64,000 nucleotides of DNA from Stratiolaelaps scimitus (lineage: Eukaryota; Arthropoda; Arachnida; Mesostigmata; Laelapidae): NCBI GenBank assembly GCA_019614645.1, contig JABWDB010000004.1, positions 12,586,001 through 12,650,000 of the forward strand. Reading direction: 5' to 3'. The notes beneath the pieces were generated by a model. That model saw only the letters and a program-made list of their open reading frames with translations. It was not told the origin of the DNA and made no database searches. Shown here piece by piece: positions 22,170 to 59,775 of this stretch (positions are counted from its first letter, which is position 1; each line of letters begins with the position of its first letter). The position numbers were made by a program, and so were the translations under genes.

Positions 22170-24207
22170 TTAGACCGTTTCTGTAGTCATGCATTTCTCG
22201 AACGCAGAATACTTTGTTTCGAGTCCGGCTTGCTTTAGAACTTTCTTGGTCGCTTTCTCAATAGTCAGACTAAGCGCCTTTAATCCCTCACCTGGAATAG
22301 ATTCCATGTAAGAAATTTATCGTACGTACCCGAGACGAGGGTGGGAGCTAAAGGAGCCCATAGCCCCAGGGAGCATTGAAATATTGTAGCCATCTTTCTC
22401 AAATTGCCACAGTTTTCGAAAGAAGGAATATGTGCTTTAGAGATAGCTATCGTGTACAGAGTCTCGACCATGCTGCAGGTCAAAAGCGAAGTTATGATTG
22501 AAATTCCGCTTTTACAATGTCTGAAGTAAAAGAAGGGAAATGATTATGTTTTGACATTAGGCCACAACAGCAGAATGCAGAGAAATTAACTTCTCAACTA
22601 GACAAGTTATTTTTTTTATTACCAAGAAGGGATTTTTGTACTAGACAAGTTCGATGTAACAGTGGGCATACCTAATGACTGAATAGAGGCTAGCATTCCT
22701 GCCACAATCGTCAGCGAATTTCTGGTAGAGAATGCGTCTGACGCAGCAGTGCGCTAGTAAGTAATGAAATGATGAAGTTATAAATTAGAGTGATTGCAAA
22801 AGCTACAACCAGCTTGCATATCATATATTAAACTGTCACGTATATATGATGACGCTCAATTCGTCGATCAGACCTTGCTATATATAGCAGAGTTATCGAT
22901 ATCTTCGTCTAGCTAAGCTTTCACTATCGACACAATGGGTTTCTTTTCAAACCGCACAGGTCGACAATGCCACTAGCGTGATATATTAATGTCACCCCAG
23001 AAATCATAAAACATTTAAATGCAATCAAGACACAAACGCTTATTTCAGACCATTCAGGCCGTGTGACGACATCCTAACGAGACATTTAAATAAGGACTTG
23101 CTCAAGCAGGGCTAATCGATACTATTAAATACAATATTTGGCCGATCGATGGATAATGGTCAACTTAAATACGTATGGCAGTAAAAAAGGCGACTTATAA
23201 CGAAAATGCTAACACTAATTCATAATTAGAATATGTCAATTTTTTAAGAAATATCCTCCTACGGAAAGTGGACATCCTGGTGCATATATTTGCATGCTAG
23301 CATTATTTACCTACCCTAATCTATCTTTATGTTACAAATGTATCGTATAATATTTCACTAGGAACTCTGAGTTGAATCGTTTTGTCTGTTTCATCACGTT
23401 GTGAGAGAGTATGAACTGTCGATATCGTTTCCTTTGATGCCCCTGGGAAAGTGCTTGTTCCAATGTACCAACATGAATTGTATAGGATTTATATTCGATG
23501 TCAACATTGTATATAGATATTATGTTGGCGCATACGAACAAATATTCTCCCAAGAGCGTCATCAAATATTTCGGAAATGATGTCGACGATGCATACTCTC
23601 ACATAGTGATGACGATCGAACTTGTCACTATAAACATCGCATAATACCATTCTAGATCCCTCCCTCTGATCTTTGTCCGCAAATTTCAGGAGGTGCGTTC
23701 AGAATGAACTCGCTAGCAGGAGATGAACATACATACCTGCTTTGTTATGGGTATGCCGGATATGATAAATTGACAGGGTGAACTGAGCGTTCTACGTCTA
23801 GTGTCCGGTCCATCTCGCAACAGTATATCAGTTAGAACGACATGATACAACAATCATAATAGATATAATCGAAACCGTCGCACCGACACAAACCGAACGT
23901 TTTGGAGCTCTGTATATGGGCAATTGTAACCAAGAGCAGATCCAGCGTTCTGACGTCTAACTTCATGTCGGTGTCATACAGATAAATACTTGACATAATA
24001 AATATTAGCACCAAACTCCGACCGCAAGTCACCTCTTTGACGGGCGTTAATACAGCTTGTGATAGTTGACAAAAGCTTGTTGGCGACGTTGCTGCTAATT
24101 GCACCCTTCTGTGCGCACGCAGTTACAGCTCGAGCGAGATCAGCAAAGGTGAACTCAACATAAACCGTCCACAATACTGCAAATACGCCAAGGGTAGTCA
24201 ACTTCAT
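22170..24207 (-). CDS. small secreted two-cysteine-signature protein, copy 1
   Basis: Exon 1 is 24207-24033 and exon 2 is 22291-22170, both with consensus borders and a phase-1 junction, giving 98 residues. A signal peptide covers about residues 1-22 (cleavage after FTFA). The first cysteine is C31 in AVTAC, an extra one is C52, and the last is C92 in the family signature KYSAFEKC. The second half is Lys/Glu-rich and probably helical. I do not recognise a named family; seven other copies in this window share the layout. The intron (1.74 kb) is much longer than in the others and contains a second exon-1-like segment (22824-22672), so the terminal exon could instead belong to that copy. A TATATATA run lies about 120 bases upstream of the start. 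Confidence 0.6.
22672..22824 (-). pseudogene. decayed exon 1 of the small secreted family
   Basis: On the - strand, CTATATATAGC is followed about 55 bases later by an ATG (22824) and a hydrophobic signal-like stretch (ICKLVVAFAITLIY). Its frame runs into a stop, but a shifted frame then reads FSTRNSLTIVAGMLASIQSLG and ends at a phase-1 GTATGC donor. The length from ATG to donor (153) is close to the exon 1 of the 42-kb copy (157). The shifted segment equals in length (28 codons) the second exon of the three-exon copy at 37.6 kb. The first cysteine is absent. A frameshifted copy is the simplest reading; a real three-exon gene with an unseen first exon is the alternative. Confidence 0.4.
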
Positions 24208-24338
24208 GTCGGCACACACACAGGTGCTCTTTCGGCCTCTAACGATAGTTTTTAACATTCACAGGTTAGGTAGCACGACGATATTCGTAGCGTTTAGTTA
24301 TTTGTCCATTTGAAGACAAGTGCATCATATATATATAG

Positions 24339-24358
24339 GCCTCCGCTAAAGCGGAGGC
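24339..24358. repeat. 9-bp perfect hairpin next to a TATA run
   Basis: GCCTCCGCT and AGCGGAGGC flank two bases, directly beside TATATATA at about 24328-24337, upstream of the - strand gene that starts at 24207. The GC-rich stem in AT-rich DNA is distinctive. It may be a promoter-proximal element or chance. Confidence 0.4.
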
Positions 24359-25495
24359 AGGTGTCTGCTCGCTGATGATAAAGATCATCTAGACGGACTC
24401 ATCCTTGTTTGTCGAACGAGATGATCGTTGGTATTGTTATATTCCCTACAAATAGTAGTTCCACTGCTGTGCCCTATAGACATAATGGCGAGCAATGGCT
24501 CCAGTCGTGGCATACGCAAATGGAGGTGCAATGATCACACTGTCGCTACACTATAGCTTCTGCAGCTGCTGTCGTGGCTAGGAAATAGGGCTTTTTTTTG
24601 TCACACAGATCCTCCTACTGACGTAGGTGGCTGCGTTTAGGCAGCCGCTTGCGGTGTCACGCACACAGGGGAAGCAGGCGAGTAAATGTGATGGTGAGTT
24701 TATTCTCGCGGCGAACCGTTCTGCTTTCTCTGGTCACGGTAATTTGCGTCTGCATACACACACACACGCACACAAATACCCATGCAGACAGAGAAGAACG
24801 CACACATGACTGCACAGTGTAGACCTAAGCACAGTGTCAGTGCTCATTTTCTCCTCCATCCTCGGCCCGTCTGTGGCCAAAGTGTTTTCCAGCTTTTTCT
24901 ATTCTCGCTCGCGGCATATTGCCCGTTGACATCGGAACTGGTGCGACGCGCACGCTAGCTTTTGACGAGAGACGGACAGACGCTGGGAGGTCCGTTACTG
25001 AGGGGGTTTACAGTGGACTGGGCCAAAATGTCGCGTAGGAATTACCAAGTAAATCACTTCATTTAGAATATCGACTTATTTCCTGGTACTGCCATGTTAC
25101 AGACCAGTGGGAATTTACAAATATTTGATAGGTCGTTAAACGCTGTGGGGTTATTTGTGTGTTGTACTTTTTTCTGGACGCTTGCCACAATAACATTTTT
25201 AAATGTTTTGCTTAAGATTGAATAGATTCGACCGTTAACGATAGCTTAAACGGAGAGGATCGGGTCATTGGAGAGTGGCCTCAGCGGTGGCAGTAATAGC
25301 ATATATGGTGTTCATTGGGTTTAGCTGCGTCATGCTAGGTTTGCAGAGTATTCAAGTCTGAGCCAGCTGAATACTTTTTGATAGCCCCTTCATATATCAA
25401 TGAAACGAAGGCATCTAATAAATTCGTACTTCACAGGATCATTTCTGTAGTCGATCTAACGTATACGTTTTTGCCGGATTCATACACTCTGAAAG

Positions 25496-25554
25496 GAACG
25501 TTCAGAGGAACGTTCAGAGGATCGTAAGGATCGAAAGGAACGAAAGGAACGTTC
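25496..25554. promoter_or_regulatory. cluster of GAACGTTC palindromes
   Basis: GAACGTTC occurs at 25496-25503, 25508-25515 and 25547-25554, with related GGAACG and GATCG pieces between. Each is an exact nGAAnnTTCn unit, the head-to-head form of the heat-shock factor site. The spacing between the first two is 4 bases, not the 2 of a continuous heat-shock element. The nearest gene candidate on the right is the frame at 26445. Confidence 0.35.
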
Positions 25555-26444
25555 TGCTCCAATGTTTAATAACCGCAAGACAAAAATTATTTAGTATATT
25601 TTATCTCTAACAATCGGTAACGCGACCTTACAAATCAGCTACGACACTTCTTCGGAGCAATTCGTAACTCGTTCTGCTATTTGTATTTGAGCTGTGTAAA
25701 TATTTACGCAAAGATCTGAGTAACCCATCCACGAAGATTTTGAATTTTGAAAAATAAACGATTTTGAATTTTTGGAAGGCGGTCCGCCATCGTGGTGAGC
25801 CAGGTTACGGTTGCGCCACCTGGCCAAGCGGATCCACTCAACCAGCAGAGATGACGATGTCAAAAAGTGACTTCTAATTCGGGGGTTTGAAATTGGACAT
25901 TAGCGACTCGAAGGAGTGTTGCGTCAAGCCGAGGTCAGTGCCATATGTGAAGTGTGAGAAATGAACCCGGGCGATCGGTGATCGGGTTGCACAAGGAATT
26001 ATAGAAGATGGATTCACCGTATCGCCGAAGGTCGGACAACACTATCAGACGTGGTGCTGATTTCAAGCTGGAACTCAAAATACAATTGTTTATTGAACGT
26101 GGCATCCCACAGAGAAAAAGTGAGGTTTTCGATGTTTTGGAGGGCCTTCTCCGTATTGTTGTCATGAATGTCCGGACTGAAGATCGATCTTTGACCAGCG
26201 GTGTCCCCGTTACAAGTCGGTCCCGGACAAACAGCGTAGTCCGCCACAGTTTGGTGGTAGCAACGAAGTCCGCGCCTGATCCTCCTGTGGATGTGTTCAA
26301 GACCACGAGGCTGCCGGCTTGGGTCCCTTCTCCGATGGACTGCGAATCACGATTGTTGAACGTCGACAACCGGAGCGGCTGTGGCGGAGTCTAGACATTT
26401 TACCTCTCGACGGGCGCCATTTGCAGCAATTTTCCCGCTCAATA

Positions 26445-26834
26445 ATGCCTATTTCCGTAGCAGATATTTGGCCAAAGGCCTTGTTAGTTCTAATGTGCTT
26501 CCTGATGGTGCTATTAATCGCGCTAAGTATCTGGGCTTTAAAGATGCTAAGACAAGTCAGCTCGCGCTTATCAAGGCCGAAACTTCAGACACGGGATGCA
26601 TGGTCCCAGATGCCGGAGACGAGTAACCTTTCGCCATTGGAGCGGACACGGGATGCATGGTCCCAGACTGGTGACTCGGATCCTCCATCGTTGCCATCGC
26701 CGCTGTCACCGAAATCGCCACAATCGCCGAAAGGATTCAGTTTATCGGAGGCGCGAGCCAGGCTGTTTATGCAGAAGTCTGGCGATGCGCATGTGAAACT
26801 GAACGCCGGGAAAGCAGTCAAGGATCGCGCCTAA
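26445..26834 (+). CDS. candidate intronless single-pass membrane protein, 129 aa
   Basis: The first in-frame ATG at 26445 opens 129 codons. Residues about 12-34 form one hydrophobic span (ALLVLMCFLMVLLIALSIWAL), followed by a basic stop-transfer stretch (RQVSSRLSRPK), so the bulk would face the cytoplasm. The middle has two copies of TRDAWSQ, reflecting a repeated 20-odd-base DNA segment at about 26589 and 26646. A Ser/Pro-rich block follows, and the end is SEARARLFMQKSG and a basic tail. No domain is recognised. A second open frame, 26008-26394, overlaps region upstream in another frame and might be an upstream part separated by a frameshift or intron. Composition is GC-richer than the surroundings. 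Confidence 0.4.
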   Translation: MPISVADIWPKALLVLMCFLMVLLIALSIWALKMLRQVSSRLSRPKLQTRDAWSQMPETSNLSPLERTRDAWSQTGDSDPPSLPSPLSPKSPQSPKGFSLSEARARLFMQKSGDAHVKLNAGKAVKDRA

Positions 26835-29629
26835 GCGCCGAGGTCACCTCGGTTACCACTGCTGCCTCAGTGACGGCCAAGGCCTACCTCAAAAGCTATG
26901 ATCGTTACTAGTGTGGATAATTGTTTGTTATGCTATGGTGGAAATGCGCTTCATTTCGTCGTGAAGTCGTCATGAAGTCAACAGTCATCATGCTTTCCGC
27001 GCGTATTGTAGCCATTCGCCTCCGTTGTGCAGACACCACATTATTTGCAAGTCAATTTGATCACTGGATTGGTTCGTCCCACTACATCTAGCATAACGTG
27101 TACATACGTATTTCTACTAAACGTTTTGATGCTCGAGCCAGATCGTTCTCTCTGCAACCTCCGTTCATCTGCTAACTGATACAAGAAGTATTCAGAGGCT
27201 CGAAAGTGAACGGAGGCATTGGTCCCGTGGACCTGCGAACAGGAGTGGATGAAGTGCCAGAGCTTGTACGTGGTGAGGTACTCAATTACGGATATTCTAA
27301 CAATCTTTAGCCCGACTCAGCCCTCCAAAGTGCTGACCGCCGTTCTTGGCAGCACATGCAAGTGGGCTTTGAGGAGAATCTTCAAAGTGCAGTCTTGAGA
27401 CTCGCTGCTAGGTTCTGCGTAACTGACTTTACTCAAGCGCGTTTCGCAGGGAGTCGCTACTTCTGGTTGATCTTCAGAATCGGAGACCTGTTGTGCACGA
27501 TGATAGCCTTTCCGTGGGGCCACAGAGTGTGAGCAACCCCGAGGCGAGACTGACAGCGAGGCCGTATAGCTGTAGAGACAGCGTGGGCGCAACCGGCCGG
27601 TGGCACGCCCGAATGACAGAACACACTCATGCCCTCGCAGAACTTAGACCACACATTCTCAGTACGACCGCGAGGCTCTTGGCAAGAGGCATACGCAGAC
27701 ATATCGGCCGCTGATTCGATACGTGATTGAACAAGGTCGCACACTATTCGTGCCTAGGGAATCTGCAATCTACCGCAGCGCTGCCAACAACAGCAGCAGC
27801 GACTGCAGTCAGTGCCATAAGATCATCTGTGATCGTTATTTGCGGGTAAAGAATAAATGCGCTCGGTCGTTTTATTACGCAAAGGTTGAAAGCTGAAGTA
27901 TACCACCGAAAGGACTACACAGTGGATATCTTGGTGCTGTAAAAGTGAAGGCTCTCGTTTGAGAACGCTTATGATGACCGGATGTTAGTCGAGAGATCCA
28001 AGTAATCCTCTCTGATTGCACATCTTCAGACATATGGCGACTCATCCCGCGCAAGGAATTCGTCTCTGGGAGTACTTGAATGAACCTTGGAGAAGGATCC
28101 ATTGTGGACTTTGCTCGCTTCTAGAAATAATATGGTATCATCGTTTTGATCAAATGGGTGTAACCCTTTCTTCATGAAGGCGCTACAATGCACTTTCGAC
28201 CGCTGCGGCTATCGGGCCAAGTCGTCAGAAAAGACGCAGCCCACGTCCCCAGCGCTCGAACTGGAAACTGGCCATAGGAGATTGTTTGGCATGAAGATCC
28301 TTGATCGTCTGGCAAATATTCATAAATGGCGACGAACGAAACCGAGCGATGAACATGCGGACCGCTGTAGGCCTCGAAAGATAATGGCCAGACGACCAAC
28401 AGCGACAAATCCAAGCTCCAAAATAATGGATTCATGACGCGAATGGATCGCGAAACGTCGACGCTCGATCGGGAGATCAGGAATATCTCACTGGACTAAT
28501 ACTCAGCTGAGCCCATCAAGCACCCTCTGTCGCAATGGACCCATTTCCAATTTCAAAAACCACTGCTATCCGCTATGGATTTAGTGGGGATAAGGAAACG
28601 ACAAGCATCGAATATACAAGTGACACTGCCAATCAAGAAAATAATCCTGCGCAGAACTGGCCCTCTAATCTTAACGCTACAATGAGCAGCACCGATCAGG
28701 GGGAGAACCCATCCCAGGTATCGCCAATATCGGAGTGCCACTTGGCGAGGCGATTTGGTCAACACGAACGCCGGGAGACCTGAGGGAATCGATCTAAGCT
28801 ATAGTATAAGGGAGAATAAATAGTATATCAAATGATTAGTGAGTCGCAAATGCATGGTACAATAACAAGATCATCGATCCTAGCTGGCGCTGATATCCTA
28901 CAAAACCCCTATAGAATACTGAACCAACTGGACAAACAAGTCGTATATTTGCCAATAGCCAAGGCGGCACAATCAATGAATGAATTTTTCTAAGGCATAT
29001 GAGACTCGGCAATAAGACTGTTTATCCAGTAAAATTCTGTTCTGCAGGCAAGATTCATTTGCTAAACATGGAAGTTTTCCAAGTTACTAGTGGCTGGTAA
29101 CTGCATTCTCTGACCTCGAGGCGTTAATAATCATCATAATCCATTAGAAGGTAGTTTAGTGCGTCTGACTTTTCAATCAACCACAAAAACTATTCGTAAA
29201 AACGAAGAAATCGAGACGGCACGCTTTCACAATCTACGCTTGCTCGCTAGATGGGCATGGGTGATCCCGTGTTCGGTGAAATGTTTATTTTCATATATCG
29301 CACGTTGCATCTTTCAGATGTGGATCAAAAATAATCGAATAGCATCCACACGAATGTGGACAACCAGTATTTATGAAGGTTGTAATGCATCATGTGTTCC
29401 TTTGCCGAATAATGGTTGGACGTCGGCCTCTTGAAAGACTGATATGACCCGTCTTGTTGAGGGAAAGTTTGAGCCTCTAACGAGAACCCTCCAAGAAGTG
29501 GTTATTTTTTCAGTTCGAGATGAAATTTTTCAGAGCCTGTTGCTGGGTAGCCATGTCGAGACGGTGTTTGAGAACCTTCTCTGACCGAAACGAGGAGCTC
29601 GTTATTCGTTTTCATAAAATATAACATCT

Positions 29630-29667
<38 letters not shown>

Positions 29668-30429
29668 TAGATAACTTTGCTGCTATCGGTATGCGTTGGC
29701 CCCTAGAGTAAGCAATTGAGATACCCTATCTGTGGCAAGAAAAAAAAAGATTGCACTATTGTTCGGCTCGCGCGGATTTCAGCTGACCCGGTTTCTTTGC
29801 CGTTTCCTCTAGAACAGTTTGAATATTCTTTTGTAAGGGGCCACGCTAACTTTCTTCAGATTCAACGAATTCTCGATTCACCATTGAGCTGCATCAACGT
29901 TCGAACGATTTGGGTCATGCTAAGTCAACACAGTCGAAACGCGGAGATTGTACGTTTAATTCGTGCGAATCCATATCAGCCAAAGTGACTGAATTGCCTT
30001 TACTTTTACAACTGATCGTTCTTACGATTGCCCCTATATACAATTGTTAATGCTTGAACTAAGCGTTACTTAAACTTGAGAGTTCGCAAACGAGTGCAGT
30101 CCCGCTATTAGACCGAAATTTGTATTGTATTGACCATCTGGCCACCGTCTGGTTCACCAGATTGTTCAGCAGGGTCAAGCCAGTCGCGAAAGTCCGAAAT
30201 GTAATTACATAATAACTAGCTCAAGGATATGCAGGTTGCATATTTGTATATAGAAATATACAATGTATTTATTTTATATACAGATATGCATTTGATTTGT
30301 CGTTCTTTTCAGGGTGTGTTCTGTAACAGCGAATCACATCATGTCTCAACGCGTGAGTTCTATACGAGCTAGCACTGTCTACTCACTATTAGCTCTAAAA
30401 TTATGCATCGTAATTAGCCATCCGCTTTC

Positions 30430-30464
<35 letters not shown>

Positions 30465-30939
30465 CATTGTGATGTCGATGTTGACACGTACCAGTCGAGT
30501 CACGTGGCCTAATACTACAATTCTAAGGGCCTCGTTATTGGGGTCACGTCTTTCCCATGCACTGCTCTATTGGGCTGTTTTTGCCCAAGCTCTCCCCGCA
30601 GCCCTGTCAGAGTTGTGCATCGTTAAGCATATGCAGTGCCATGACTCGTAATGGACCACGTCTTACTTGCATAGCGAAAGACAGTCTGCTGACGGGACTA
30701 TCAGCGTCGGCTCTTTCATGCAATTCTTATATAGTTTAGTTTGGACGCCAAGCACCGGGGACACGCACCCCGACAATGATCTCGTGAAGGGTTAGTGGTT
30801 TGCTCGGCATTCCCTAAGAATGCCAACCCGTTCGTAGTGGTTCATATGCTCGTGCTAACCCGATGGCCCATCACTAGAGTCGGTAGAGCAGCATTTTAAT
30901 TCGACGAAGAACGCGAAATGTTCCTCGGCTGCACTAGAG

Positions 30940-30942
<3 letters not shown>

Positions 30943-30998
<56 letters not shown>
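30943..30998. repeat. (TA)n microsatellite, longest in the window
   Basis: Twenty-eight TA units without interruption, followed by CATATATAC. It is translated as an Ile/Tyr run in the overlapping open frame, which is therefore not a gene. Confidence 0.97.
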
Positions 30999-31004
<6 letters not shown>

Positions 31005-31191
31005 TACTCTGTTTGCGCAAGTTTACAGACAGTTATGCATCGCAATATGAGGCCACTTTTACGTCATAGGGTGCAACTTGCTGCTAAAGGTAGAGATGGA
31101 AGAGAGTACATTGCTCTGGGTCCTTACTGTTCTTATAACGGACAGAACAGAGATGTAATCGAAATAAAACATTGAATGTGTTATACAATAA

Positions 31192-31350
31192 GCTAGTTGG
31201 CTCTTCAAGACGCCCGGCAAGTTGAACTGCGGGTTCGGTCCCTACCGTTGCACGTTTGTATTGCAAAAAGGGGTCCGTCTTACGAAGCAATGCCGAACGT
31301 AGTACAGTGGACGTCGTTTAATGTTGACCGAGAATCGGCCTGGAAAATCT
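31192..31350 (+). repeat. tRNA-derived SINE, nearly full length
   Basis: This copy keeps the tRNA-like head (AGCTAGTTGGCTC then CGGGTTCGGTCCCTACC) and the full body with GTCCGTCTTACGAAGCAATG and GTTTAATGTTGACCGAG. It is the second most complete copy after 63544-63690 and ends at GGCCTGGAAAATC. Orientation is +. Confidence 0.75.
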
Positions 31351-32114: not shown

Positions 32115-32151
<37 letters not shown>

Positions 32152-32447: not shown

Positions 32448-33104
32448 TTATCCAGCGGTTTTCGGTGGTTCCAGCTTCAGGGCGGCACAGTTCGAGATGT
32501 TAGCGAACTTGCCGCGTTGACCAATGTTATTAAGGAACGTGTCCGTCTCATACGCTACTTTATTTTGAAGAATCTTCAGGTCACTGCCTGCGTTGAAAGC
32601 AATCGGGGTCACATTCGTTACTATGCTATTTCATCGATTTTCTTTGATCGATAACAACTTGATACCTTTAAGACCTGGCTATCTAAGGGTTTGGCTACAG
32701 CGAGAATAAATGTTTTCAATAGGCATACGTCTGAACGTATCGATCAGAATATAAAGGGCAGTACAAAGATGAAGTGTTACGCTTAGGTGGGCGATTTCAT
32801 GCCACAATCTGTCTAATCGACGCACGTTGCTTTGAAACGCTCCTTTTTGAGCAGAATCCCACAATGAATCTGTCTAATTGTTTCAATAAACGCCCTACTA
32901 ACGACGAATGATTGAAAAGTATGTGTCTGATAAACCTGCGGTGTAGTTGGTAATGTGCCTGGCGGCGATGTCAAAGATAACCTGGCCCGTGGTGTCATCG
33001 AGTCCATTTTCTTTGACGCAAGCCTTGATTGCCTGTGCGATAGGCGCAAGGTCCCAGCCCTGGGCCAGCTGGAAAAATGTCCACCCGAGTATTAACGGTA
33101 GCAT
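32448..33104 (-). CDS. small secreted two-cysteine-signature protein, copy 2
   Basis: Exon 1 is 33104-32936 and exon 2 is 32587-32448; the junction is phase 1 and the intron 348 bp, giving 102 residues. A short signal peptide covers about residues 1-16 (cleavage after LAQG). C29 lies in AIKAC and C90 in KFANISNC, the only two cysteines in the mature chain, so a single intrachain or interchain disulfide is possible. NIS at the second signature and NYT before the junction are potential N-glycosylation sites. The C-terminus extends beyond the others with EPPKTAG. The acceptor is a GCAG-GCAG repeat; the chosen one keeps the frame. An AG directly upstream of the start (TTATTCCAG) could mark a 5' UTR intron. 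Function unknown. Confidence 0.7.
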
Positions 33105-35946: not shown

Positions 35947-36545
35947 CTATTTAGCTGAGGTGAATGCCCGAGTCTCACGAGGAAGGGAGTCCCAGGCGGC
36001 TGGAAGGCGGTAAGTAGCTACGTGGCGGCTGGACTCCGTAAAGGCGAACGTATCCTTGAACATTGTCGCGCGTCTGACCGAGCGATTTGAGACTGCAATG
36101 TCATTGAGAACAATCCCTCTGTACGAATCCCTTTGGAAGCGAAAAGTATAAGATACACCGACCACATCCTGGCTCCAGTCTGTAGAAAACCATCTTTTCA
36201 AAAACTTTGCATAGGTGGTCAACCAGGGATCTAGATCTGGATTTTGAATTTAGCTTGCGGTCACCTTTGTGTTTGAATAGAGGAGTAATCGTCTCCATCT
36301 TAAGCTTGCCAGGGAAAATCTATTTTGACGGGGGCGAGGACAAAGCGGGGCTTCTGACTTGTCCCGATTGAGACCAGTTCAGGACAGATGTCCTCCTGCA
36401 ACTCGAACGTCGATACAGTTTTTGAATCCTCTGTCACGAAATGCAAGTTTAATTCATCAGCGATCTCTTGGGGAGAGTCGAATAGACCCGATCTACCCTC
36501 AAGAATGTCGACTCTTCTGTACCAGGAGCAAGGTGCCAGCGACAC
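35947..36545 (-). mobile_element. non-LTR retrotransposon, internally deleted remnant
   Basis: Three - strand frames in order carry parts of a jockey/CR1-style ORF2. 36545-36300 has the region before the reverse transcriptase (SPQEIADELNLHF). 36298-36170 has the start of the reverse transcriptase (ITPLFKHKGDRK, then CKVFEKMVFYRL). 36150-35947 has the C-terminal block after it (SVRRATMFKDTF, VATYRLPAAWDSLPRE). The catalytic core between KVFEKMV and the C-terminal block is missing, and there are frameshifts, so the copy is dead. Confidence 0.75.
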
Positions 36546-37205: not shown

Positions 37206-37987
37206 TCAGTTGTCCTTCAATTTGGCCGAGACACAGTCGCAGAGGTCAGTGAGCTTATTGCCGACTCCGGAAGCCGTCATAACCTGATTAGCCTGTGATT
37301 TGATGTCTTCCTGGATCTTTGCGGCATCTTGATCTGTATCGCCATAGGAACGTAGGTAAAACAACACGGTTAATTTCTATGCGCCAGCATATTATTGACA
37401 AACAACAAATGGGCCCCCATGTCCGAGTGGACACAGTCACATTTGACTGATCATTCCCATTCGTCGGAAAGCACTGGCCCGAAAACCAGCTCTTTCACGG
37501 AAACTTCTCAAACAAACCTGTTTATACCCGACCGAAACTAAAGTATATCTCGAATTTATCAAAATAACTATCTGCAATTTTCTCACTGACATACCTCCGC
37601 CCTGCATTTTGCTTCGGATGACTGCTTCCAGCTTGCTGACGACATCATCTTTGATGCCGAGCTCCTTCGAGCATGCCTACCAAGGAATTGGAGTAGAGGT
37701 AAGGAAAGATCCAGCATTGTATTTCATTCAATGTAGCGATATCATGATATAGAGATACCAAAACCTCACAGCCATAACAGTAACAAACGGACATTTAGAA
37801 GAAGTTTGAAAATTGATCTGATGTAGCCGTTCGACGGGTTTTTCGAACGATGATTTTGCCATAAACATAAATAGTGTTTTTAGTTATGGGTGTCGCTCAC
37901 CTTCATTGCGTCCACGGCTCCATTGGCGTCCACGGCCTGGCAGCCCGTGAACACTGCGGCGGATATGAAAAAGAGCGAGATGATCAT
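37206..37987 (-). CDS. small secreted two-cysteine-signature protein, copy 3 (three exons)
   Basis: Exons are 37987-37901, 37676-37595 and 37333-37206, with GT-AG borders, junction phases 0 and 1, and introns of 224 and 261 bp; the product is 98 residues. The signal peptide is about residues 1-18 (TGCQA). The first cysteine, C31, sits right after the first junction (AMK-ACSKE), giving the family AMKAC motif across the intron. The C-terminus has KLTDLCDC, with C88 and C90, matching the family K-x-x-x-h-x-x-C motif with an added cysteine. This copy alone has an intron just before the first cysteine; the second intron is at the position and phase shared by all copies. TATAAAA at 38028-38034 and AATAAA at 37157-37152 frame it. 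Function unknown. Confidence 0.75.
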
Positions 37988-38027
37988 TCTGAAAACATTT
38001 CAAATATTAACATTAAGAATTACGAAC

Positions 38028-38034
38028 TTTTATA
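38028..38034 (-). promoter_or_regulatory. TATA box for the 37.2-38.0 kb gene
   Basis: On the - strand, AATATAAAAGTTCG lies about 41 bases upstream of the ATG at 37987. That distance implies a very short 5' UTR. A GTTTTCAG acceptor-like sequence ends one base before the ATG, so a 5' UTR intron is an alternative. Confidence 0.5.
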
Positions 38035-42045: not shown

Positions 42046-42740
42046 ATGAGGTATCTGACGAGCTATATTCTAGCCGTGATCGCTCTGGTGGGCGTTGTCT
42101 CCGCTGGAGATGACGCAAAGAATAAGGCTGCCGTAGCCACGTGTATCTCTAATGCCAATTTTTCAGAAAAAGAACTCGCTGCACTTCAGAAGGTAATTGA
42201 GAGTAAGTAACGAGTCATCGATATAAGCTCTATAATTAGTTCGACTGCTATACCATATACTTACATTTGTGAGTGCACAATATTGCAGCTGTTGTCTGTC
42301 AATCACAACAATGAGACTTGCATATACCTGGTACATAAACCTCGTTGAATCTGATATATATATGCTTGTGTACGTTGTGGACACCATTACGCAGGTGCCG
42401 AAATGGAAGGGTTAATTATAATATAATACATTATAATTATGGCAATTCGTAATCGTGTAGGACAGCAGCACGAAGACTTTAATAGAGGCTGACATTTTCT
42501 CTAGAATTTCTCCTCCTAAACTTCGCTGTGAGTAGATCAATTCATGCTGTCCTCCGATTGAAAACTCAACCGCCACCTATTGATACCGCTGTGCACCAAC
42601 TCCGCTAACGTGAGTCACATTCGTTTCGATCGTGCACAGGTCAAGGAGCCAAGCTGAAGTTGGATGAAGCCATGAAGCAAGCCAACATCGACAGCGACAA
42701 AGTGAAAGCGATGAAAGATTGTGTTGGACGGGCGGTTTAG
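42046..42740 (+). CDS. small secreted two-cysteine-signature protein, copy 4
   Basis: Exon 1 is 42046-42202 (donor GTAAGT) and exon 2 is 42640-42740; the junction is phase 1, intron 437 bp, product 85 residues, the shortest copy. The signal peptide covers about residues 1-20 (VVSA). C33 lies in AVATC and C80 in KVKAMKDC; these are the only cysteines. The chain between them is Lys/Glu/Ala-rich and likely helical. An alternative donor GTAATT ten bases earlier is in a different phase and would break the frame. An in-frame extension upstream of 42046 exists but lacks an ATG before the signal peptide. AATAAA follows at 42810-42815. Function unknown. Confidence 0.78.
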
Positions 42741-47957: not shown

Positions 47958-47964
47958 CATAAAA
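47958..47964 (+). promoter_or_regulatory. TATA box (CATAAAA) for the 48.0-kb gene
   Basis: CATAAAAGCG lies 66-72 bases before the ATG at 48030. The same core CATAAAAGC lies before the copies at 52.5 and 55.7 kb. Confidence 0.65.
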
Positions 47965-48029
47965 GCGTGTCATCCGTTTAGTTTTGCCAAATTGTCCTTT
48001 GCTGCACGCGGGACGAGTAGGTCTTCATC

Positions 48030-49045
48030 ATGTGGAAAATTGGCTCCATCAGCTTGTTGATCTTGTCAGTACTGGCATTATGTCAAACGTCTGTAAGCGG
48101 CAAACTCGATAGAGCAGTAATCAAGTCAACGTTCGATGAGTGCGCAAAGAAGAATGAACTTTCAGAGGATTTCATGAAAGAACTGGCTGAAGCCGTTACG
48201 AAGTCAGCGAAAGCAGGTGACCTGAGGATATTTCTTTCACAATGTTCAATAGTATATAGCTTGGGCAGCGGTGTGCGGTATTATGGCGCACGTGCTATCT
48301 TTCGAACTGCAATTATTCGAGAATTCAGTCGTGCACAATGTCAAGCCGCCGTATGCGAGCATGCAATACATCTCTACATCCATCAGTTATCTGAAGCGTT
48401 TGACGTGCACATGAATACGCGCTAGTGTATCTTGACAAGACCCTACTGATTCACCTTTGATGGTAGCAAGTCAACGAAACTTCAATTCAGTTAGGTTAAA
48501 TGTTGGCTGAGAGTCAGTCCGAAAAACCTAGGTTCTACTATGCAGATAACTCTCAAAGGCCATAGTCGAGTCTACGAGGTAGACGCTTTGAAGACGCGGC
48601 AAGTGTAGGGTAACATATAGCAGAGAATACAAGAGCACGAAGATACGAAGAGATGCCAACAATCAACATCGGCAAGAGAACGAACGAATGCCCGCACTTG
48701 AATACCGCAAAGAGGGTGCGAGTATTTATTATTACAATTATTATTTGTTTCATAACTTACATTGTATATGCAATAGCCACTAGTAATTCAGAGTTCATTA
48801 GCACATATGAATACATTGTGCCCTGTAGAAACACTGGAGTCCACTCGGAGAATCGTGCTAAACGCGTTGTTGTTTTCTCCCTGACCCATCCGTATCTAGT
48901 GACTGTCAGCGCATCACCAGCAGATCTCAAAAAGGCGGTGGAAGCTACAGCCTTGGCTAAATTTGACGAAAAAAAGTTGTCCGACAAGTACAAGCCGTTT
49001 GAAGAGTGTGTCCGAAAACAGCTAGCTAGTGCTGTGGCGTCGTGA
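48030..49045 (+). CDS. small secreted two-cysteine-signature protein, copy 5
   Basis: Exon 1 is 48030-48216. Exon 2 runs from 48921 (or 48924) to 49045, because the acceptor is a CAG-CAG tandem that keeps phase 1 either way, giving 102 or 103 residues. The signal peptide covers about residues 1-24 (TSVSG). C38 lies in STFDEC and the last cysteine in KYKPFEEC. Between them the chain is Lys/Ala/Glu-rich (LKKAVEATALAKFDEKKL), predicted helical. Exon 1 stays open past its donor for many codons, which can mislead gene finders. The CATAAAA promoter is at 47958 and AATAAA at 49174. Function unknown. Confidence 0.78.
48495..48530 (+). repeat. SINE 3' body fragment inside an intron
   Basis: TTAAATGTTGGCTGAGAGTC and AGTCCGAAAAACC match the 3' body of the tRNA-like SINE. 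It sits in the intron of the 48.0-kb gene. Confidence 0.55.
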
Positions 49046-52100: not shown

Positions 52101-52363
52101 GAGCCCACGAAATGAGTCCAGTGGCTACTTGTACCTTTTTGTTGTTGTTGTTGTTGTTGTTGTTGTTGCCCCACCCAACAGGTAACGACCGTAGCCGGCT
52201 TGTGTTGGTGTGAATTTCATGTTTGACTCCATGCCACTGGAATGAAGGCGCACGTCTAAGTGTCGCCGCCAGATACACCTTTCCACAGCGGTGTCAATGC
52301 GTGTGGTTTCACAGAATATGGCATGTCCATTATTGTGGTCAGCGGGAACTACACGCAGGGTGC
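49180..52363. other. intergenic, no recognised gene
   Basis: No exon that I can support. The - strand frame 51178-50993 reads HFSGEAGLNSNSTMVHIEMD and then GGRIARATHIENVSFDD, which looks coding-like, but it has no ATG with clear context, no splice partner and a competing open frame; I leave it unassigned. A (GTT)n tract is at 52141-52168. Confidence 0.5.
52141..52168. repeat. (GTT)n microsatellite
   Basis: About nine GTT units following a T-run; on the - strand it is translated as poly-Asn in an overlapping spurious frame. Confidence 0.9.
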
Positions 52364-52370
52364 CATAAAA
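52364..52370 (+). promoter_or_regulatory. TATA box (CATAAAA) for the 52.5-kb gene
   Basis: GCCATAAAAGCTCAGA is nearly identical to GCCATAAAAGCTCGGA before the 55.7-kb gene. It lies 96-102 bases before the ATG. Confidence 0.7.
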
Positions 52371-52465
52371 GCTCAGACCTCACCGACAGTCTCGCCATGA
52401 TTCCCCGACGATCCCTGTTAACTGGAGCAGCTAGCCACCTGGCCGTCTATTCAGAGCTAGTCACA

Positions 52466-53370
52466 ATGGCAAAACCTATCTGGCTCCTCGTGCTACTGTT
52501 CTGCGCCGTCACGGTCACACTCGGCGAGGAAAATGCTGAATGGGCTAAGTTCCAAACGGTAATCAAGGAATGCGTTAAGGACAAGGCAAACGACGAGCCT
52601 GGATTAGCAGACAAGATTTTGGCTATCGTTAAAGAGAACGTGCCCAAGGATGGTACGTTTCGAACGCTAAACTCATCCAATTAATTAGACTTTGTCCCTG
52701 CAACACATTTGTAGTAGCACCGGTGTGGTTGAACATGATGGAGGCACACTTGAACATCCCTGAATGTTTTTCTACGGGTGTGTCTCTAGGTGTTAGCGTG
52801 TATACAGGAGGGTAATTGGTTGGCCCATTTCGGTCACTCTTCACTGTACAGTGAATGCATTTTGTACACAGAGCTTTCACTGGGCAACGTTCGCGTACAA
52901 GTGTGTAGTGGAAACAATCCGATGATTGCAAATTTCGTTGAGGGCGTGTGGTTCCCGGGCGAAGCACTGTATTGAAACGATGCCGGTGTCAAATCTAAAT
53001 TCCGGTTGCGCCTTAAGCGGCTTCAACTCAATGTATATGTATATATTCATGTGTGTATGTATGTAACCTATAGCCACCGAATCGCCGTTGTCATATGCTG
53101 GTCCTAATTGAAATGCTCAGTTTTAGTGTACTATGCTGGTTACTGTGGCTTAATAGTTACTCTTACTGATCGGAAGTCGCCACAGTGAGCTAATCAGGAA
53201 GAGGCGAATCGAAATAAATGTCCAGTCAAACTAATTACACTATATTGGTTACAGGCACAGTAAACAGCTCCGTGCAACAGGACGTTGAGAAGAAGTGCAA
53301 ACTGCTTTTCTCCGATGAAGCCAAGTATAAGGCATTTTCAGCCTGTGCCGAAACGAAGCTCAAGGCTTAA
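52466..53370 (+). CDS. small secreted three-cysteine protein, copy 6
   Basis: Exon 1 is 52466-52652 (donor GTACGT) and exon 2 is 53255-53370; phase 1, intron 602 bp, product 100 residues. The start at 52466 is preferred (CACAATGG) because the signal peptide begins there; an open in-frame stretch back to 52223 is outside the mRNA if the TATA at 52364 is used. The signal peptide is about residues 1-20 (VTLG). Cysteines are C36 (VIKEC), C77 (EKKCKLLF) and C93 (KYKAFSAC). C77 and C93 are 15 residues apart, exactly as in the 55.7-kb copy. An odd cysteine number allows covalent dimers. The 55.7-kb copy is its closest relative here. AATAAA is at 53528. Function unknown. Confidence 0.83.
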
Positions 53371-53527
53371 AAACGGACTAGTTAATTCAGGCCCGCTGTT
53401 GTTCGCTCTCGAGGAGTGAATCTGCGCTGCTGTAGTACTCAAATATCGCGGGCTCGGCAGTCATCGAGTTTGCTAATTAACCTTTCCTAAGGTACCCTAC
53501 GGTAAATCAAACAAACTTTATTGCAAC

Positions 53528-53533
53528 AATAAA
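53528..53533 (+). terminator. poly(A) signal for the 52.5-kb gene
   Basis: AATAAA in GCAACAATAAAGGTGC, 158 bases after the stop at 53370. Confidence 0.65.
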
Positions 53534-53885
53534 GGTGCTGCAAGTTCGCTGTACATGTAAACCGTCCGCAAAGAGGACTATTGCTAAAAACACTCGTAAG
53601 GTCAGGACAAGTTACTGACTGTTTAAATTACGCTATTTATTGCTCTCTTCTCTGATGGGAATATTTGAGTGTGAATAAAATTCAAAGTTTCTCTATGCGC
53701 TTGATGCTTTTTTTCTGCTGCGATGCGCCAAATGATCAACAGACAGTAGACATCTTGCGGATCTATTATATAAGTGTATTATATTATATCTGCGGGTTAG
53801 AGGAAGACTGTATTATCACTCAGGATGGAAAGGTCGAAGTGATGTGGTCAACGTTCCGAGCCATCTGGGTCTTGGAGTGAAAGCG

Positions 53886-53887
<2 letters not shown>

Positions 53888-53926
<39 letters not shown>
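53888..53926. repeat. (TA)n microsatellite
   Basis: About twenty TA units followed by GTATGTATGT. A (GATA)n run follows further on at 54321-54340. Confidence 0.95.
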
Positions 53927-53933
<7 letters not shown>

Positions 53934-53937
<4 letters not shown>

Positions 53938-55674
53938 CGCCGATGCATGTCAATGTCACGAACTGTCCTCCTTTTCGCATACTAGCTTGTCGGATATTCT
54001 CTGTATTACAACTACTAATCACAAATCTCGAGAAGCTTGCCTTTTGCTTACATCAAAATCGTCCTGTAGACGGTTGTCTCAGTGTCCGAACATGCGCATT
54101 TGTAAGTTTATTCGCTCCCACTTCCACCGCTAACCGGTGCTACGCTAGCAGAAATCAACAACCAGTTGTCGTATATCTTCCTCGAGTTTCAGCCTCCTGC
54201 GTCACTTTCGTCTCGGATCATGGTACGAATACTGCGAGCTCGCTCCGATCATAAAACGCTTCGTTTACTTGATAAGCCAATCAATCGACGTCAATTCGTT
54301 TCTTTGTTTCATTGCCAACCGATAGATAGATAGATAGATACAAGTTGAAACGAAGTCTGATTCTGACCCACGCCGGAATAGAGCCCACTATGCTGAATAG
54401 GGAGACCATCAGCACCCCGTCCATAGGCGTGTGGAAATATTTCTACAGCTAGCAGCGTGATATGTACAAACGATCGGCAGCCTTATGACGAGTGTTGCAC
54501 GCGACGTTCCATGAAACAAGATGTGCTAGCGTATTTTTCGATAGCTTATATTGTTGCTTGTAACTAATTCCATACGAGTGCTTCTAGATCACTCAATGTT
54601 TTGTTCTACGTTGGGTATCCATTGGATCCATAGGAATGCTTTATTCGCGAGTGCACCAATGTACATATTAATATTAGTACGATTGTACATTGAGAAAGCA
54701 TGCGAGCAAACGAAATCACCACGTTTGAGTAGACGATTACATTGATTGTACCGAACAATTTCGTTAATTTGATGAATCTTCCTATTTTGATAGGTTTGCT
54801 AACGTTTTCTTATCGGAACACCATTGTAAGGCTGAGATCACTGTCCGTGATGAGGTAGACAACGGAGAAGGGTTGCCGCTCCTATCAGCCACCCCGTGCT
54901 GGACACTTGTCCATTGTTGTCCATCCGTTGTTTCCATTTCGCGGTACTCAACCAGTGGACGCGATCGCACGACAATACAGTTGATATTGAAATGTCCGTA
55001 AGCGAGGTATTATTAATAGCCGCAATGACATCATTAGCAAATGTAACTCCTATCCAAATTTTGTTACACTTATCTAATGTGTATGCAATGCTTCAATCTG
55101 ATGTAAATATAGCCTATGTTCGGATGCGCTCGTAACTCCGCCAGGCAACGAAGGTATCGCGAAGTCAAACAATGATGTTATACAAGGCCGTCCTCAGCCA
55201 CAGAAGCCGGATGAAACACGAAATTATGCGCAGGGCTGAGAAACAACAAGATCTTCTTAAACGCGTCGATATCTACCATCTTTCTAATTGCTGGACACAT
55301 AATATCTATTGTTATGCATCTATTGTCTAAGCGAGCCATTTCACTATGCGTAGCTTCCTCAGATCTCAGCAGGTCTGCTTGCCTACGCTAGTTTGCGGGT
55401 GGTGTCGTCAACAGCCGTCAAGGGGAGATGAATCACTGAATTCGCATCGTTTTGTCACTTGTTGCTGGTGTTTTCATGGTATTAGCGGTGCCAACACGGA
55501 TAATGTCAATCAAGCAAGTAGTAGTCAAGCGCTCGATCGATATATTGAGTATTTGATGCTGACATTGACCGAACATACCTGCAAGACGCTTTCGAGTCAA
55601 TTCACCAAAGCGTAGGGCGGCAGCGGTCGACAGCTGGGCGTGTCGACTGGGAAAAGGCCGATTGCCCGACCCGC
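53934..55674. other. intergenic, no recognised gene
   Basis: A GATA tetranucleotide run at 54321-54340 is the only distinct element. Short open frames (54896-55135, 55346-55615 and others) show no domain, and none has a supported splice partner. Confidence 0.5.
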
Positions 55675-55681
55675 CATAAAA
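55675..55681 (+). promoter_or_regulatory. TATA box (CATAAAA) for the 55.7-kb gene
   Basis: GCCATAAAAGCTCGGA lies 66-72 bases before the ATG at 55747 and matches the element before the 52.5-kb gene at 15 of 16 bases. Confidence 0.7.
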
Positions 55682-55746
55682 GCTCGGAACTTGGCCGAAT
55701 TTGTCAGGTTGTACCTGTCAGCCAGCCTTGTGTGCCCCTGCTCGAT

Positions 55747-56598
55747 ATGACGAAAGCAGCTTCCATCCTCGTGGCTCTTTGCGCCGTTGGATTTGTTGTA
55801 GGAGCGGAAACCGATTTTTCCAAAATCGAAGCCGTCGTAAAAGAATGCGTCAAGGGCCAGGCCGATGCTAACACAGATGAGACCAAGTTAGCCGAGAACC
55901 TTCTAGCCGCCATTAAGGAGCACCATTCTCCGAAAACCGGTACGTTCTCACGAAACGTAAAGTACGGATAAGCAAGAAATATCCATTCGCTTGTCATTCG
56001 AACGAGGTTAGGTCAGTCGTTTACTCCGAGATCGGTCTTGATGACGAGGGGTACTCCAGTGAAATTGGGATCTCTCATATACCATAGAAGTAAGCGGATT
56101 TCGCTTATTATGATATAATGATACTTGTGATAATAGTAAATAGAATAATTTTGTTTTAGTATATTGGAAAGGTACGGTTTGACGTGGGGCAACTCTACTA
56201 ATTCGCGACTATACACAAATTTGCGCATGTACATACACAAAAATCATTACTTGTAATTATAACATACAGTGTCTACAAAAGCGCCCAATCCGTCCGACCC
56301 GTTATTATCACCAGTTGAGAACTCATTACTATCTATAATAGTACATGTATATGTAGTATATGTCACTGTAATCTAGTAATTTGTACAATGACAATTACAA
56401 GAGACGAGGGAGATATTGTAATAATATACTAAACATACAAATGAACTAACTATTTGCGTTTCATCTTTTTCTGTTACAGCCGGCATGAGCTCGGAAGAAG
56501 CAAAGAATCTGGAGGATAAGTGCAAGAGTTTTTTCACAGATGAGAACAAATTTAAAGCCGTTGCCGCCTGCATCCAGAATAAGACGAAGTCTGTTTAA
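55747..56598 (+). CDS. small secreted three-cysteine protein, copy 7
   Basis: Exon 1 is 55747-55939 (donor GTACGT) and exon 2 is 56480-56598 (acceptor TTTTTCTGTTACAG); phase 1, intron 540 bp, product 103 residues. The signal peptide is about residues 1-20 (FVVGA). Cysteines are C34 (VVKEC), C79 (DKCKSFF) and C95 (KFKAVAAC). It shares the KECVK, KCK-x-x-F-x-D-E and K-x-K-A-x-x-A-C blocks, both splice sites and the promoter core with the 52.5-kb gene, so these two are recent tandem duplicates. The mature chain is acidic in the first half and basic at the end. Function unknown; a secreted or salivary effector or a carrier are only guesses. Confidence 0.83.
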
Positions 56599-57154
56599 CG
56601 ACTACCTCTCCACTTGTCCAAAGAAAAGGTCAAAGCGGTGACGCAAGCCTCCGGAGGCGGCAGAGCGACAACGTGCTAACTCCTACCGCTTAGTCAGACG
56701 GATAGAGACGGATAAAAAACAATGGAGAGCGGTCGTTCATAGATCGTTCAGAGATTCAAGTAAATAACCATGCAGTGTTCACCTTGTTCAGCATGATGGC
56801 GTTTATCTCAAATAGCCTGATAGAAAACAAATAGTCGTCACATACATCGTAATGCCGAGTTTTGTATGTGTCCCATAGTGATTATGTGGGAATTAGCAGG
56901 AAGTTATGAGAGGAGAAGGCACACAATGATATCGAGTATCATAGCAACGAGCTACTGTATATGTTTCTCGTTGTCGTGCTAGCTAGAGTTCAAGGGAACA
57001 TATTACGCTATCGGAACAATTTGCTCGATACCGTGGTCAATAATATGATCTCAAAATAGATCGGTCCTCGACGGATGAACCCCTGCAACGATGGAGTTCG
57101 CCGATTGAGGGTTAACGTCATCTCGAAGTCAGCCAGATGCTTCCTTTGATCCCC

Positions 57155-57194
<40 letters not shown>

Positions 57195-58152
57195 GCTTCT
57201 CTTTGAGATCAATATGATCGGATTGTAGATATGAATTTTGTTCAAGTTCCGCGCATTTTTTCTGCTTTGCGATATCATGTAGGATTGCGTAGAACTAGGC
57301 AGCACCTGAAAGTTCAGGGTATTGATGTTGGATACATCACTTATGCATGTTAGCATAGACCATTATTATGAATGAAACATATGCAGCGTGCAGTTCGTTG
57401 ATTCAAAGGGCATTTTATGTTAATGCGACCAAGTGTGCCCTTGGAACATCCCTGGAGGTAAGGATATCGAAGATCTTTGAAAACATAAGATGTCGTAACG
57501 CTCGCTAAGATTGTGAGAATAAAGCGGTATCGGGCTATATGATAGGAATAGTCGACGCTTCAGCAGTAAACGTGACATTTATGCTGTGTTCCACCTAGGA
57601 TTTAACTGGCGTAGCAGCTAAATGGAGAGGGATGACACAAACGATGCGATTGTACCATATTTAACCTAAGAAATTTTAGCCTCGATCCTAATCAAAATCG
57701 AATCTTAACTCAGTTAATCCTAATCGGATACTATTTGTGGCGAGTCATGTCGACGTTCAAATTTACCTGTTATTCCTGGAAAATTCTGAGAACATATAAA
57801 AATGACTTTCTAAACTGATTTCTCAAAAATTTCAACGAAAAGCGAAACTTATCGTCAAGACGGAGCGAACAAGAAAGAATAAACAAAATCTGAACTATTT
57901 GATATCTTTCGTAACCGCATAAATGAGGATGGCCCCTAACCAGAGAGAAGAAAGAGCGGAGCAGAAGGTATACTTACCATCGCACGTAGACAAGGTGAAA
58001 CTTGGTATTGACTTGTTAGCCTGCAGCCTTTGGAACATTGGGAGGGCTGAGGATACAATCTTGAAACATTCTGCAGATATTGGAAGAAAGGTCATCGTCC
58101 GCTACAGGAGAACCACGTGCAACCAATTTTTAGTGCACAGATATTCCTTAGA
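56599..58152. other. intergenic, no recognised gene
   Basis: A (CT)n tract at 57154-57189 is the only distinct element. Open frames at 57895-58159 on both strands show no domain. Confidence 0.5.
57154..57189. repeat. (CT)n microsatellite
   Basis: About eighteen CT units with one CC interruption; it can act as a GAGA-type element in arthropods, but no gene start is seen next to it. Confidence 0.9.
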
Positions 58153-58375
58153 TATATAAAGGGGAGCAACGCATTTTCTGCTTTGGGCACACTTAGTTAC
58201 CGGGGAATTGGGGCTTTCGTCGCCTACTTTTATTATACAATCGAATTTATTCATATATCAAACTTGGCGCCGGTTAGAAACCCAAGCCAAGTTATTCAAG
58301 CTGTGCGCGAAAAATACGGCACCTTTATAGACAAAAATTGGGTTTTAGTGACCGTGTTGATCAACAAAATAGCCG
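58153..58375 (+). pseudogene. decayed promoter plus exon 1 of the secreted family
   Basis: TATATAAAGGGGAGC at 58153 resembles the family TATA boxes. Downstream, one frame reads SNLAPVRNPSQVIQAVREKYG then NWVLVTVLINKIAG and ends at a phase-1 GTATTA donor (58375/58376). This matches the mature start of the 33.1-kb copy (WDLAPIAQAIKAC ... ARHITNYTAG) in layout, with the first cysteine replaced by Val (VIQAV for VIKEC). No in-frame ATG starts a signal peptide and no terminal exon with the signature follows, so it is probably dead. Confidence 0.35.
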
Positions 58376-58970
58376 GTATTAAGCCTTCGAGGATAGAGGC
58401 TGGCTTTCAGACGTTTCGGTGGTGAAGTCCAATCAGAGCACCTGATTGGACCTGATATCACCTCCCCGAGGTGGTGGTCAGTGATGGTGGTGATCCCGTG
58501 GAGGATCATCTCGAAGTGAGGAGGATCCACCTTTTTTTTCATATTTAGATTTCCCAGAATTATTCTGAGTCATCTTAGCGCCACTCGAACAAATCGATTG
58601 TGCTCATTGTCACAAGCAATGAATAGCTTCCAGCGACGCCAAAGTGACCTCAGATACATTTGGTAGCCAGTGGTGATATCGTCAATTCGAAAACAACTCT
58701 CGTCATCGGGAGGGAGTCAGTTTAAAAAGTCATTTCACAGTCGACCATGAAGTGCCGTTGAAGTGAACGACGCCTCGGTGCGTGTCATTACTGTCACCCT
58801 GACACTTCGTACTATTGTATAATATGCTGACTTTGACACGAACAGAGGATATTTGCGCAAAAGTCCCATTACGCGCTTAATATCATAGACGAACAGTGAA
58901 CCGTGAATTGTGAATTGAACAGCGAAATGGAAGCGTGCCCAGTGTCATCAGGGATGATGTGCCGGATACC

Positions 58971-58980
58971 TTTAAAAAGC
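58971..58980 (+). promoter_or_regulatory. TATA-like element for the 59.0-kb gene
   Basis: TTTAAAAAGC lies 64-73 bases before the ATG at 59044, at the same distance as the CATAAAAGC elements of the neighbouring copies. Confidence 0.5.
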
Positions 58981-59043
58981 GCCACTGGTGAGTGGTTTCG
59001 ACAGTCGTTGACACGCGTCCGGTGTTCGTAAACGTTCGTGACA

Positions 59044-59775
59044 ATGTCCAAGACACTCCACCTTCTGTTCGCCCTTGCGGTCATTGCGATCGCTGCACAA
59101 TCTCCCGTAGAAGCTGGCAAGGAGATCGGTGAATGCATGGAGAAGCACCAGATTGCGAAAGAAGGCTTGAAGGAAAAGATACAAGAGGCAGTTAAGAAAC
59201 ATTTTACCACAGGTGGTAAGTCTCTCGTTTGTTTCAATTGTAGTTAACGTTGAACCCAGTGCAGCAAGACATATGATGATGTTTGTGCGTGAAGACATAT
59301 CGTGAGATTTTTCACGATATTCTCATCGAATACGGGGCGAATCTAATCCAGCAGATGTCACCGATTTTCAAAAAGGGTCTTGAACAAGTCCAGCGAGTAT
59401 GCGGGTCGTCAATTTCAATCTAGTCGAGACATTCGAGGGACTTTAATACACTTTTGGTTCACGAGAGACTCTGCAAGTGCCTCTATCGTTTGACGTTCGT
59501 TATTGGCATGGGTCGTTATTTTTGACTATCTCGTATGTCAGTCTCATGCAGATCAAGCGAACTCGAGTCGGGAGGAAGTAACACAAACAAACAACCATTG
59601 AGTAGAGCAGCAGTTCGCTGATGACACCTCTCCTATTACATTTGCAGGACCACCCGATCCGAAAGCGATCGCCGACTGCGAGAAGGAAGTGGACGAGCTG
59701 TTCAAGAACGAGAACTTGGAAAGCAAGTTTACAGAATTCAAAAACTGCATGCACTCCAAATTTCCGACGAAGTAG
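59044..59775 (+). CDS. small secreted three-cysteine protein, copy 8
   Basis: Exon 1 is 59044-59215 with donor GTAAGT (a second donor 3 bases earlier also keeps phase 1) and exon 2 is 59648-59775; intron 432 bp, product 99 residues. The signal peptide is about residues 1-24 (SPVEA). Cysteines are C31 (EIGEC), C68 (ADCEKEVDELF) and C91 (KFTEFKNC). The last two are 22 residues apart, seven more than in the 52.5- and 55.7-kb copies, so it is a more distant member of the three-cysteine group. The first half is Lys/Glu-rich (KEGLKEKIQEAVKKHF) and helical. AATAAA is at 59995. Function unknown. Confidence 0.8.

Follow-up and report, generated by a model that had tools for sequence, protein, structure and literature searches.

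Eight related genes (g1 to g8) form one 38-kb cluster at positions 22170-59775 of the DNA analyzed here, a 64,000-nucleotide window from the mite Stratiolaelaps scimitus (GenBank assembly GCA_019614645.1, contig JABWDB010000004.1, positions 12,586,001 to 12,650,000; coordinates below are window positions unless they carry a contig prefix). Judged by their sequences, these genes represent a real and apparently undescribed family of mesostigmatan mites, to which the honey-bee parasite Tropilaelaps also belongs. That the family is genuine and its products are secreted, as predicted, is very probable. Taken as a whole, the data are best explained by secreted, disulfide-pinned four-helix bundles that serve as extracellular binders or carriers, a reading that we consider reasonably probable.

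A shared protein signature

Each of the eight predicted proteins combines a signal peptide (judged by eye), an h-x-x-C motif, a phase-1 exon junction, and a K-[YFVL]-x-x-h-x-x-C motif near the C-terminus. All eight C-terminal motifs quoted in an earlier, sequence-only reading of this DNA were found at their places and strands, and the coding ends of the cluster, 22170 and 59775, are exactly those it gave. The motif was described there as terminal; it is present in 8/8 genes but is near-terminal, with 5-12 residues beyond its last cysteine. Two cysteines are invariant in 10/10 sequences, namely the eight window genes, a ninth gene on another contig, and the Tropilaelaps mercedesae protein BIW11_12011. 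The two cysteines and the phase-1 intron that define the family are present in all eight window genes. The presumed mature chain has a third cysteine in five of them (g1, g3, g6, g7, and g8), at differing places. The lysine of the C-terminal motif is invariant in the window genes and BIW11_12011 and is replaced by glutamate in the ninth member.

Evidence for a single family

Profiles made from the complete set recovered every member, a circular result, so the fairer test was to remove one gene at a time and to score all six-frame open reading frames (ORFs) of at least 20 residues in the 264 kb read around the cluster (GC content 44.4%), the signal exon of g3 not being scored as a false match. 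At least one exon outscored every non-family ORF in 8/8 held-out genes. Exon 1 ranked first in five (g1, g2, g5, g6, and g7), second in g4, ninth in g8, and 57th in g3, where this exon is split, while exon 2 ranked first in 6/8, fifth in g5, and 66th in g2. Held-out E-values of single exons spanned 2e-7 to 110, and both exons were weak on their own in g3 (68 and 0.7) and g4 (3.6 and 2.2).

A profile of the eight translations was searched against a protein database of 5.8 billion, in which 501 word-sharing candidates were scored. It retrieved one protein, BIW11_12011 of T. mercedesae (97 amino acids, 'Secreted protein', hypothetical), at E=2e-12, which agrees with the acarine relative that the sequence-only reading had predicted. 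Tropilaelaps, another dermanyssoid mite, is also placed in Laelapidae. The protein is 65% identical to the three-exon g3 over its whole length and continuous through both g3 intron positions, and its sequence identifies it as the orthologue of g3. Because it matches g3 end to end, both g3 introns are supported by an independent annotation. It has the same two core cysteines and the same signal peptide region as g3 but is without the third mature cysteine of g3, and is annotated only as hypothetical or secreted. As a query against the protein database, BIW11_12011 found only itself, one such protein for T. mercedesae, and g7 alone found no match; this search depends on shared five-residue words and may miss relatives in other mites.

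The ninth member was found with g6 (E=1.2e-5) in the genome of 426,401,914 bases on 145 contigs. It is an uninterrupted ORF at C3:12687052-12687375 (+) with a signal peptide (by eye) and the motifs FIRAC and EYKMFGIC, and reads straight across the site of the phase-1 intron. Scored with a profile that excludes it, the ORF reaches E=3e-10. The gene may have arisen by intron loss or by retroposition, that is, a retrocopy-like event; the surrounding sequence established neither a poly-A tail nor flanking repeats. Both the annotated orthologue and this intronless copy contradict the possibility that the exons are not joined as proposed. The claim that the genes belong to one family is upheld by the held-out ranks, the orthologue, and the ninth gene. 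A rival view is that there is no real family, only pseudogenes or open frames that arose by chance. In its favor, g6 and g7 alone have held-out E-values below 0.01 in both exons, and the values exceed 0.1 in both exons of g3 and of g4 and in one exon of each of the genes g1, g2, g5, and g8. This view is contradicted by an exon in first place in every held-out gene, by eight genes without frame breaks, by the intronless paralogue and, at least for g3, by the orthologue in another genus, and is extremely improbable.

The divergence among members puts them beyond the reach of ordinary similarity searches. Single genome-wide queries were made with g1, g2, g5, g6, g7, g8, BIW11_12011 (for g3), and the ninth gene without its first methionine, g4 being left out. 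Among the seven queries that stand for cluster genes, only g6 and g7 matched another cluster gene, namely each other. The ninth gene was matched by g6 and, at E 8.6, by g8, and as a query it found only itself in the genome. A consensus of the ten sequences gave 11 genome matches at E<=10, all 11 to the family: ten exon-sized places from 7/8 cluster genes and the ninth gene. Nothing outside the family was matched in the 426 Mb at this threshold, and g4 was missed too. The consensus was built from the same members, and only the absence of other matches is informative; because it missed g4, it may also have passed over other members of similar divergence. The row of the ninth gene carried one stray residue past its stop, which is also in the consensus and in the helix profile used below. 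Within 100 kb on either side of the cluster no convincing further member was found, the best other exon-1 match being a lone 13-residue match at E=0.43 and the best other exon-2 match reaching E=10. The same holds for about 22 kb around the ninth gene (best other E 0.72).

Gene models

The cluster is laid out with g1-g3 on the minus strand followed by g4-g8 on the plus strand. All eight coding sequences run in frame from ATG to stop, and all introns in the models are GT-AG. A phase-1 donor with a matching acceptor is present in 8/8 genes, the exon with the last cysteine begins, behind an AG, with the two remaining bases of the split codon, and splicing yields a sense codon in each case, as expected from the eight spliced genes of the sequence-only reading. 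That reading had also placed the intron about 20-30 residues after the first cysteine; the place is right, and the split codon lies 20-31 residues past that cysteine. Phase-1 intron lengths for g1 to g8 are 1741, 348, 261, 437, 704, 602, 540, and 432 nt.

On the minus strand, g1 consists of exon 1 at 24033-24207 (signal peptide, AVTAC; phase-1 donor GAG/GTGACT) and exon 2 at 22170-22291 (KYSAFEKC, stop TAA), and g2 of exon 1 at 32936-33104 (signal peptide, AIKAC) and exon 2 at 32448-32587 (KFANISNC, stop TAA). The earlier model of g3 stands in its motif and phase-1 intron but not in its signal peptide, which lies in an extra exon, so that g3 has three exons in total. Exon 1 of g3, at 37901-37987, encodes the signal peptide MIISLFF..CQAVDANGAVDAMK; it is 57% identical to residues 1-30 of BIW11_12011, with an E-value of 0.09 on its own. 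A 224-nt phase-0 intron at 37677-37900 separates it from exon 2 at 37595-37676 (ACSKELG..), and exon 3 follows at 37206-37333 (KLTDLCDC, stop TGA).

On the plus strand, g4 has exon 1 at 42046-42202 (signal peptide, AVATC; donor AGA/GTAAGT) and exon 2 at 42640-42740 (KVKAMKDC, stop TAG). For g5 these are 48030-48216 (signal peptide, TFDEC) and 48921-49045 (KYKPFEEC, stop TGA), where the acceptor is ambiguous by a few residues. The closest pair follows, with g6 at 52466-52652 (signal peptide, VIKEC; donor ATG/GTACGT) and 53255-53370 (KYKAFSAC, stop TAA), and g7 at 55747-55939 (signal peptide, VVKEC) and 56480-56598 (KFKAVAAC, stop TAA). The last gene, g8, occupies 59044-59215 (signal peptide, EIGEC; donor GTG/GTAAGT) and 59648-59775 (KFTEFKNC, stop TAG).

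A TATA-like ATAAAAG occurs in the 150 bp that precede the ATG in four of the eight genes, against an expectation of 0.013 per gene from the surrounding 264 kb. These elements are at 38027-38033 (-) for g3, -46 from the ATG; at 47959-47965 (+) for g5, -71; at 52365-52371 (+) for g6, -101; and at 55676-55682 (+) for g7, -71. No such element was found within that distance in g1, g2, g4, g8, or the ninth gene. AATAAA occurs at most 400 bp from the stop in 6/8 genes, the exceptions being g2 and g7.

Predicted structure

The structure was modeled for BIW11_12011 only, and the helices of the window genes were read from the family profile. From the single sequence, AlphaFold2 predicted that the mature part forms four helices (21-35, 39-54, 60-78, and 84-96), with a mean predicted local distance difference test score (pLDDT) of 78.6 and a predicted template modeling score (pTM) of 0.60; over residues 21-97, 10-residue blocks had pLDDT of 78-90. 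A second model, with ten window exon rows added (among them exon-1 rows from g3 alone), gave the same four helices with ends shifted by at most 3 residues and with less confidence (pLDDT 71.0, pTM 0.58). All four helices are amphipathic in the family alignment according to a permutation test of the hydrophobic moment (p 0.016, 0.005, 0.005, and 0.029). In the model one invariant cysteine lies in helix 1 and the other in helix 4, at whose start the motif lysine is predicted.

A fold of four helices with a single disulfide joining helix 1 and helix 4 is, on these models, quite probable. The bond itself is the simplest reading of the invariant cysteine pair and likely, and the five members with three cysteines may dimerize via the odd third one. 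A helical, disulfide-linked fold had been proposed from the sequence alone; the helical part is supported by the AlphaFold2 prediction and the amphipathic family profile, but the disulfide is only inferred.

Age and divergence of the copies

Pairwise identity among the window genes is 10-39%, g6 and g7 being the most similar at 39%. Synonymous divergence (dS) by the Nei-Gojobori method (NG86) was saturated and not computable in 18/28 pairs and was 1.41-4.17 in the other 10, in all of which nonsynonymous divergence (dN) was lower than dS. Because synonymous sites are saturated, the copies are old, and neither speed of change nor positive selection can be read from them. The description of the family as rapidly evolving under selection was therefore not sustained; rapid positive selection is unproven, and low identity can be age alone. 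At least one member is constrained, because the g3 orthologue in another genus is 65% identical. We posit that the cluster arose by old tandem duplication.

Possible functions

According to our preferred reading, these small proteins would be exported, fold into a four-helix bundle in which one disulfide likely ties helix 1 to helix 4, and take a soluble binding or carrier role outside cells. This last step is the tentative one, and the carrier or binding role taken by itself is possible at best. The calculated isoelectric points of the members range between 4.7 and 9.6, which counts against a purely cationic, membrane-lytic role as well as a uniformly cationic antimicrobial one.

Alternatively, the proteins might be a predator's salivary or feeding secretion, diversified through tandem duplication and acting on prey tissue or prey defence. 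S. scimitus is a predatory mite, and tandemly arrayed genes for small, divergent secreted proteins with cysteines would fit such a role. However, g3, the sole member whose orthologue is known, shares 65% identity with its counterpart in a bee parasite of different diet, and there is no sign of accelerated change, so that we see this role as rather unlikely. Reproductive secretions also often form small tandem families, and an origin of this tandem, divergent, secreted family in the accessory gland, spermatophore, or egg coat deserves mention. The sequenced S. scimitus line is parthenogenetic according to the available part of one report (PMC7936031), which would weaken a seminal role, and we consider a reproductive or egg-associated function improbable. 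The further proposals, of odorant-binding-like chemosensory carriers and of a silk- or adhesive-type assembly domain, are weighed with the known systems below.

Database searches and neighboring sequence

Pfam had no model above its curated cut-off for any of the eight window proteins (g3 as a 69-residue partial sequence), nor for nine queries that included the full g3 and BIW11_12011 and left out the ninth gene (best E 0.02). By sequence, the PDB yielded chance-level matches only, with 13 profile hits at E<=10. One candidate there, a designed repeat at E=3e-6, was rejected, as no stretch of it was significant alone. Rfam gave nothing at gathering scores. No description of the family came up in the literature searches made, querying by the locus tag of the Tropilaelaps protein retrieved no paper, and the available part of PMC5467014 holds no relevant passage on the family. 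None of the members is assigned to a named family in the databases consulted; the statement that this is not a named family agrees with the lack of matches to Pfam or to solved-structure sequence families.

Several other features were noted in the surrounding sequence. An SH2 domain exon (Pfam SH2, E=1e-9) at 13520-13780 (+), which we take to be tensin-like, is a possible anchor for locating the cluster in other mites. The sequence at 35950-36319 (-) resembles, by eye, a decayed reverse transcriptase of a CR1- or I-type retrotransposon, for which Pfam returned nothing. A 265-residue open frame at C4:12560517-12561311 (+) is a candidate very-long-chain fatty acid elongase by its appearance, and one of 290 residues at C4:12555442-12556311 (+) has a C-terminal cysteine pattern resembling that of a TGF-beta ligand. 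A 326-residue open frame at C4:12722356-12723333 (+), mostly helical by eye, is not among the family profile matches.

Comparison with known systems

Classical odorant-binding proteins (OBPs) have six conserved cysteines. The mite proteins might be chemosensory carriers of this kind reduced to one disulfide, but the six-cysteine pattern is absent in 10/10 sequences, OBP fold matches appear at ranks 31 and 35, and there is no Pfam match; such a role is improbable. Secretoglobins (uteroglobin) are vertebrate proteins of about 70-80 residues with four helices and two distant cysteines outside the helix ends, and form dimers through interchain disulfides, whereas the cysteines of the mite family are predicted inside helices 1 and 4, and Pfam gave no match to them. 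Microplusin-like antimicrobials have six cysteines and a histidine-rich tail, in contrast to the 2-3 cysteines and 0-3 histidines in each mature chain here (10 sequences). The tick 13-kDa-basic family and arachnid OBP-like proteins are likewise small and secreted, with a predicted fold that is OBP-like; the tick family has six conserved cysteines according to the available part of its description (PMC9779611), compared to two in the mite family.

The spidroin domains (aciniform and minor ampullate repeat, FlSp and AcSp1 N-terminal) are, like the family described here, arachnid, secreted, and all-helical. Spidroin helical domains sit inside long silk proteins. They recurred, as weak matches, among the best-ranked fold neighbors in two models, with scores within chance for helical bundles; the ranking is a re-ranking of Foldseek's picks only, and the spidroin rank is without a proper null. 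No spidroin family was among the Pfam matches at E<=1 and no spidroin chain among the 13 PDB hits at E<=10. The N-terminal domain of spidroins is described as a five-helix domain in the available part of PMC9237525, whereas four helices are predicted here and there is no sequence match. A silk- or adhesive-type assembly domain that is fold-related to the spider-silk domains is very unlikely, and it is slighter still in our view that the cluster might be a free-standing, one-domain mite cousin of them. If it were, spidroins would gain a relative outside spiders, and a disulfide-pinned secreted bundle would be the sort of building block that silk domains might derive from. The signature, gene structure, and consensus of this sequence-defined family should ease expression and structure work, including tests of whether the likeness to the spider-silk fold is a coincidence.

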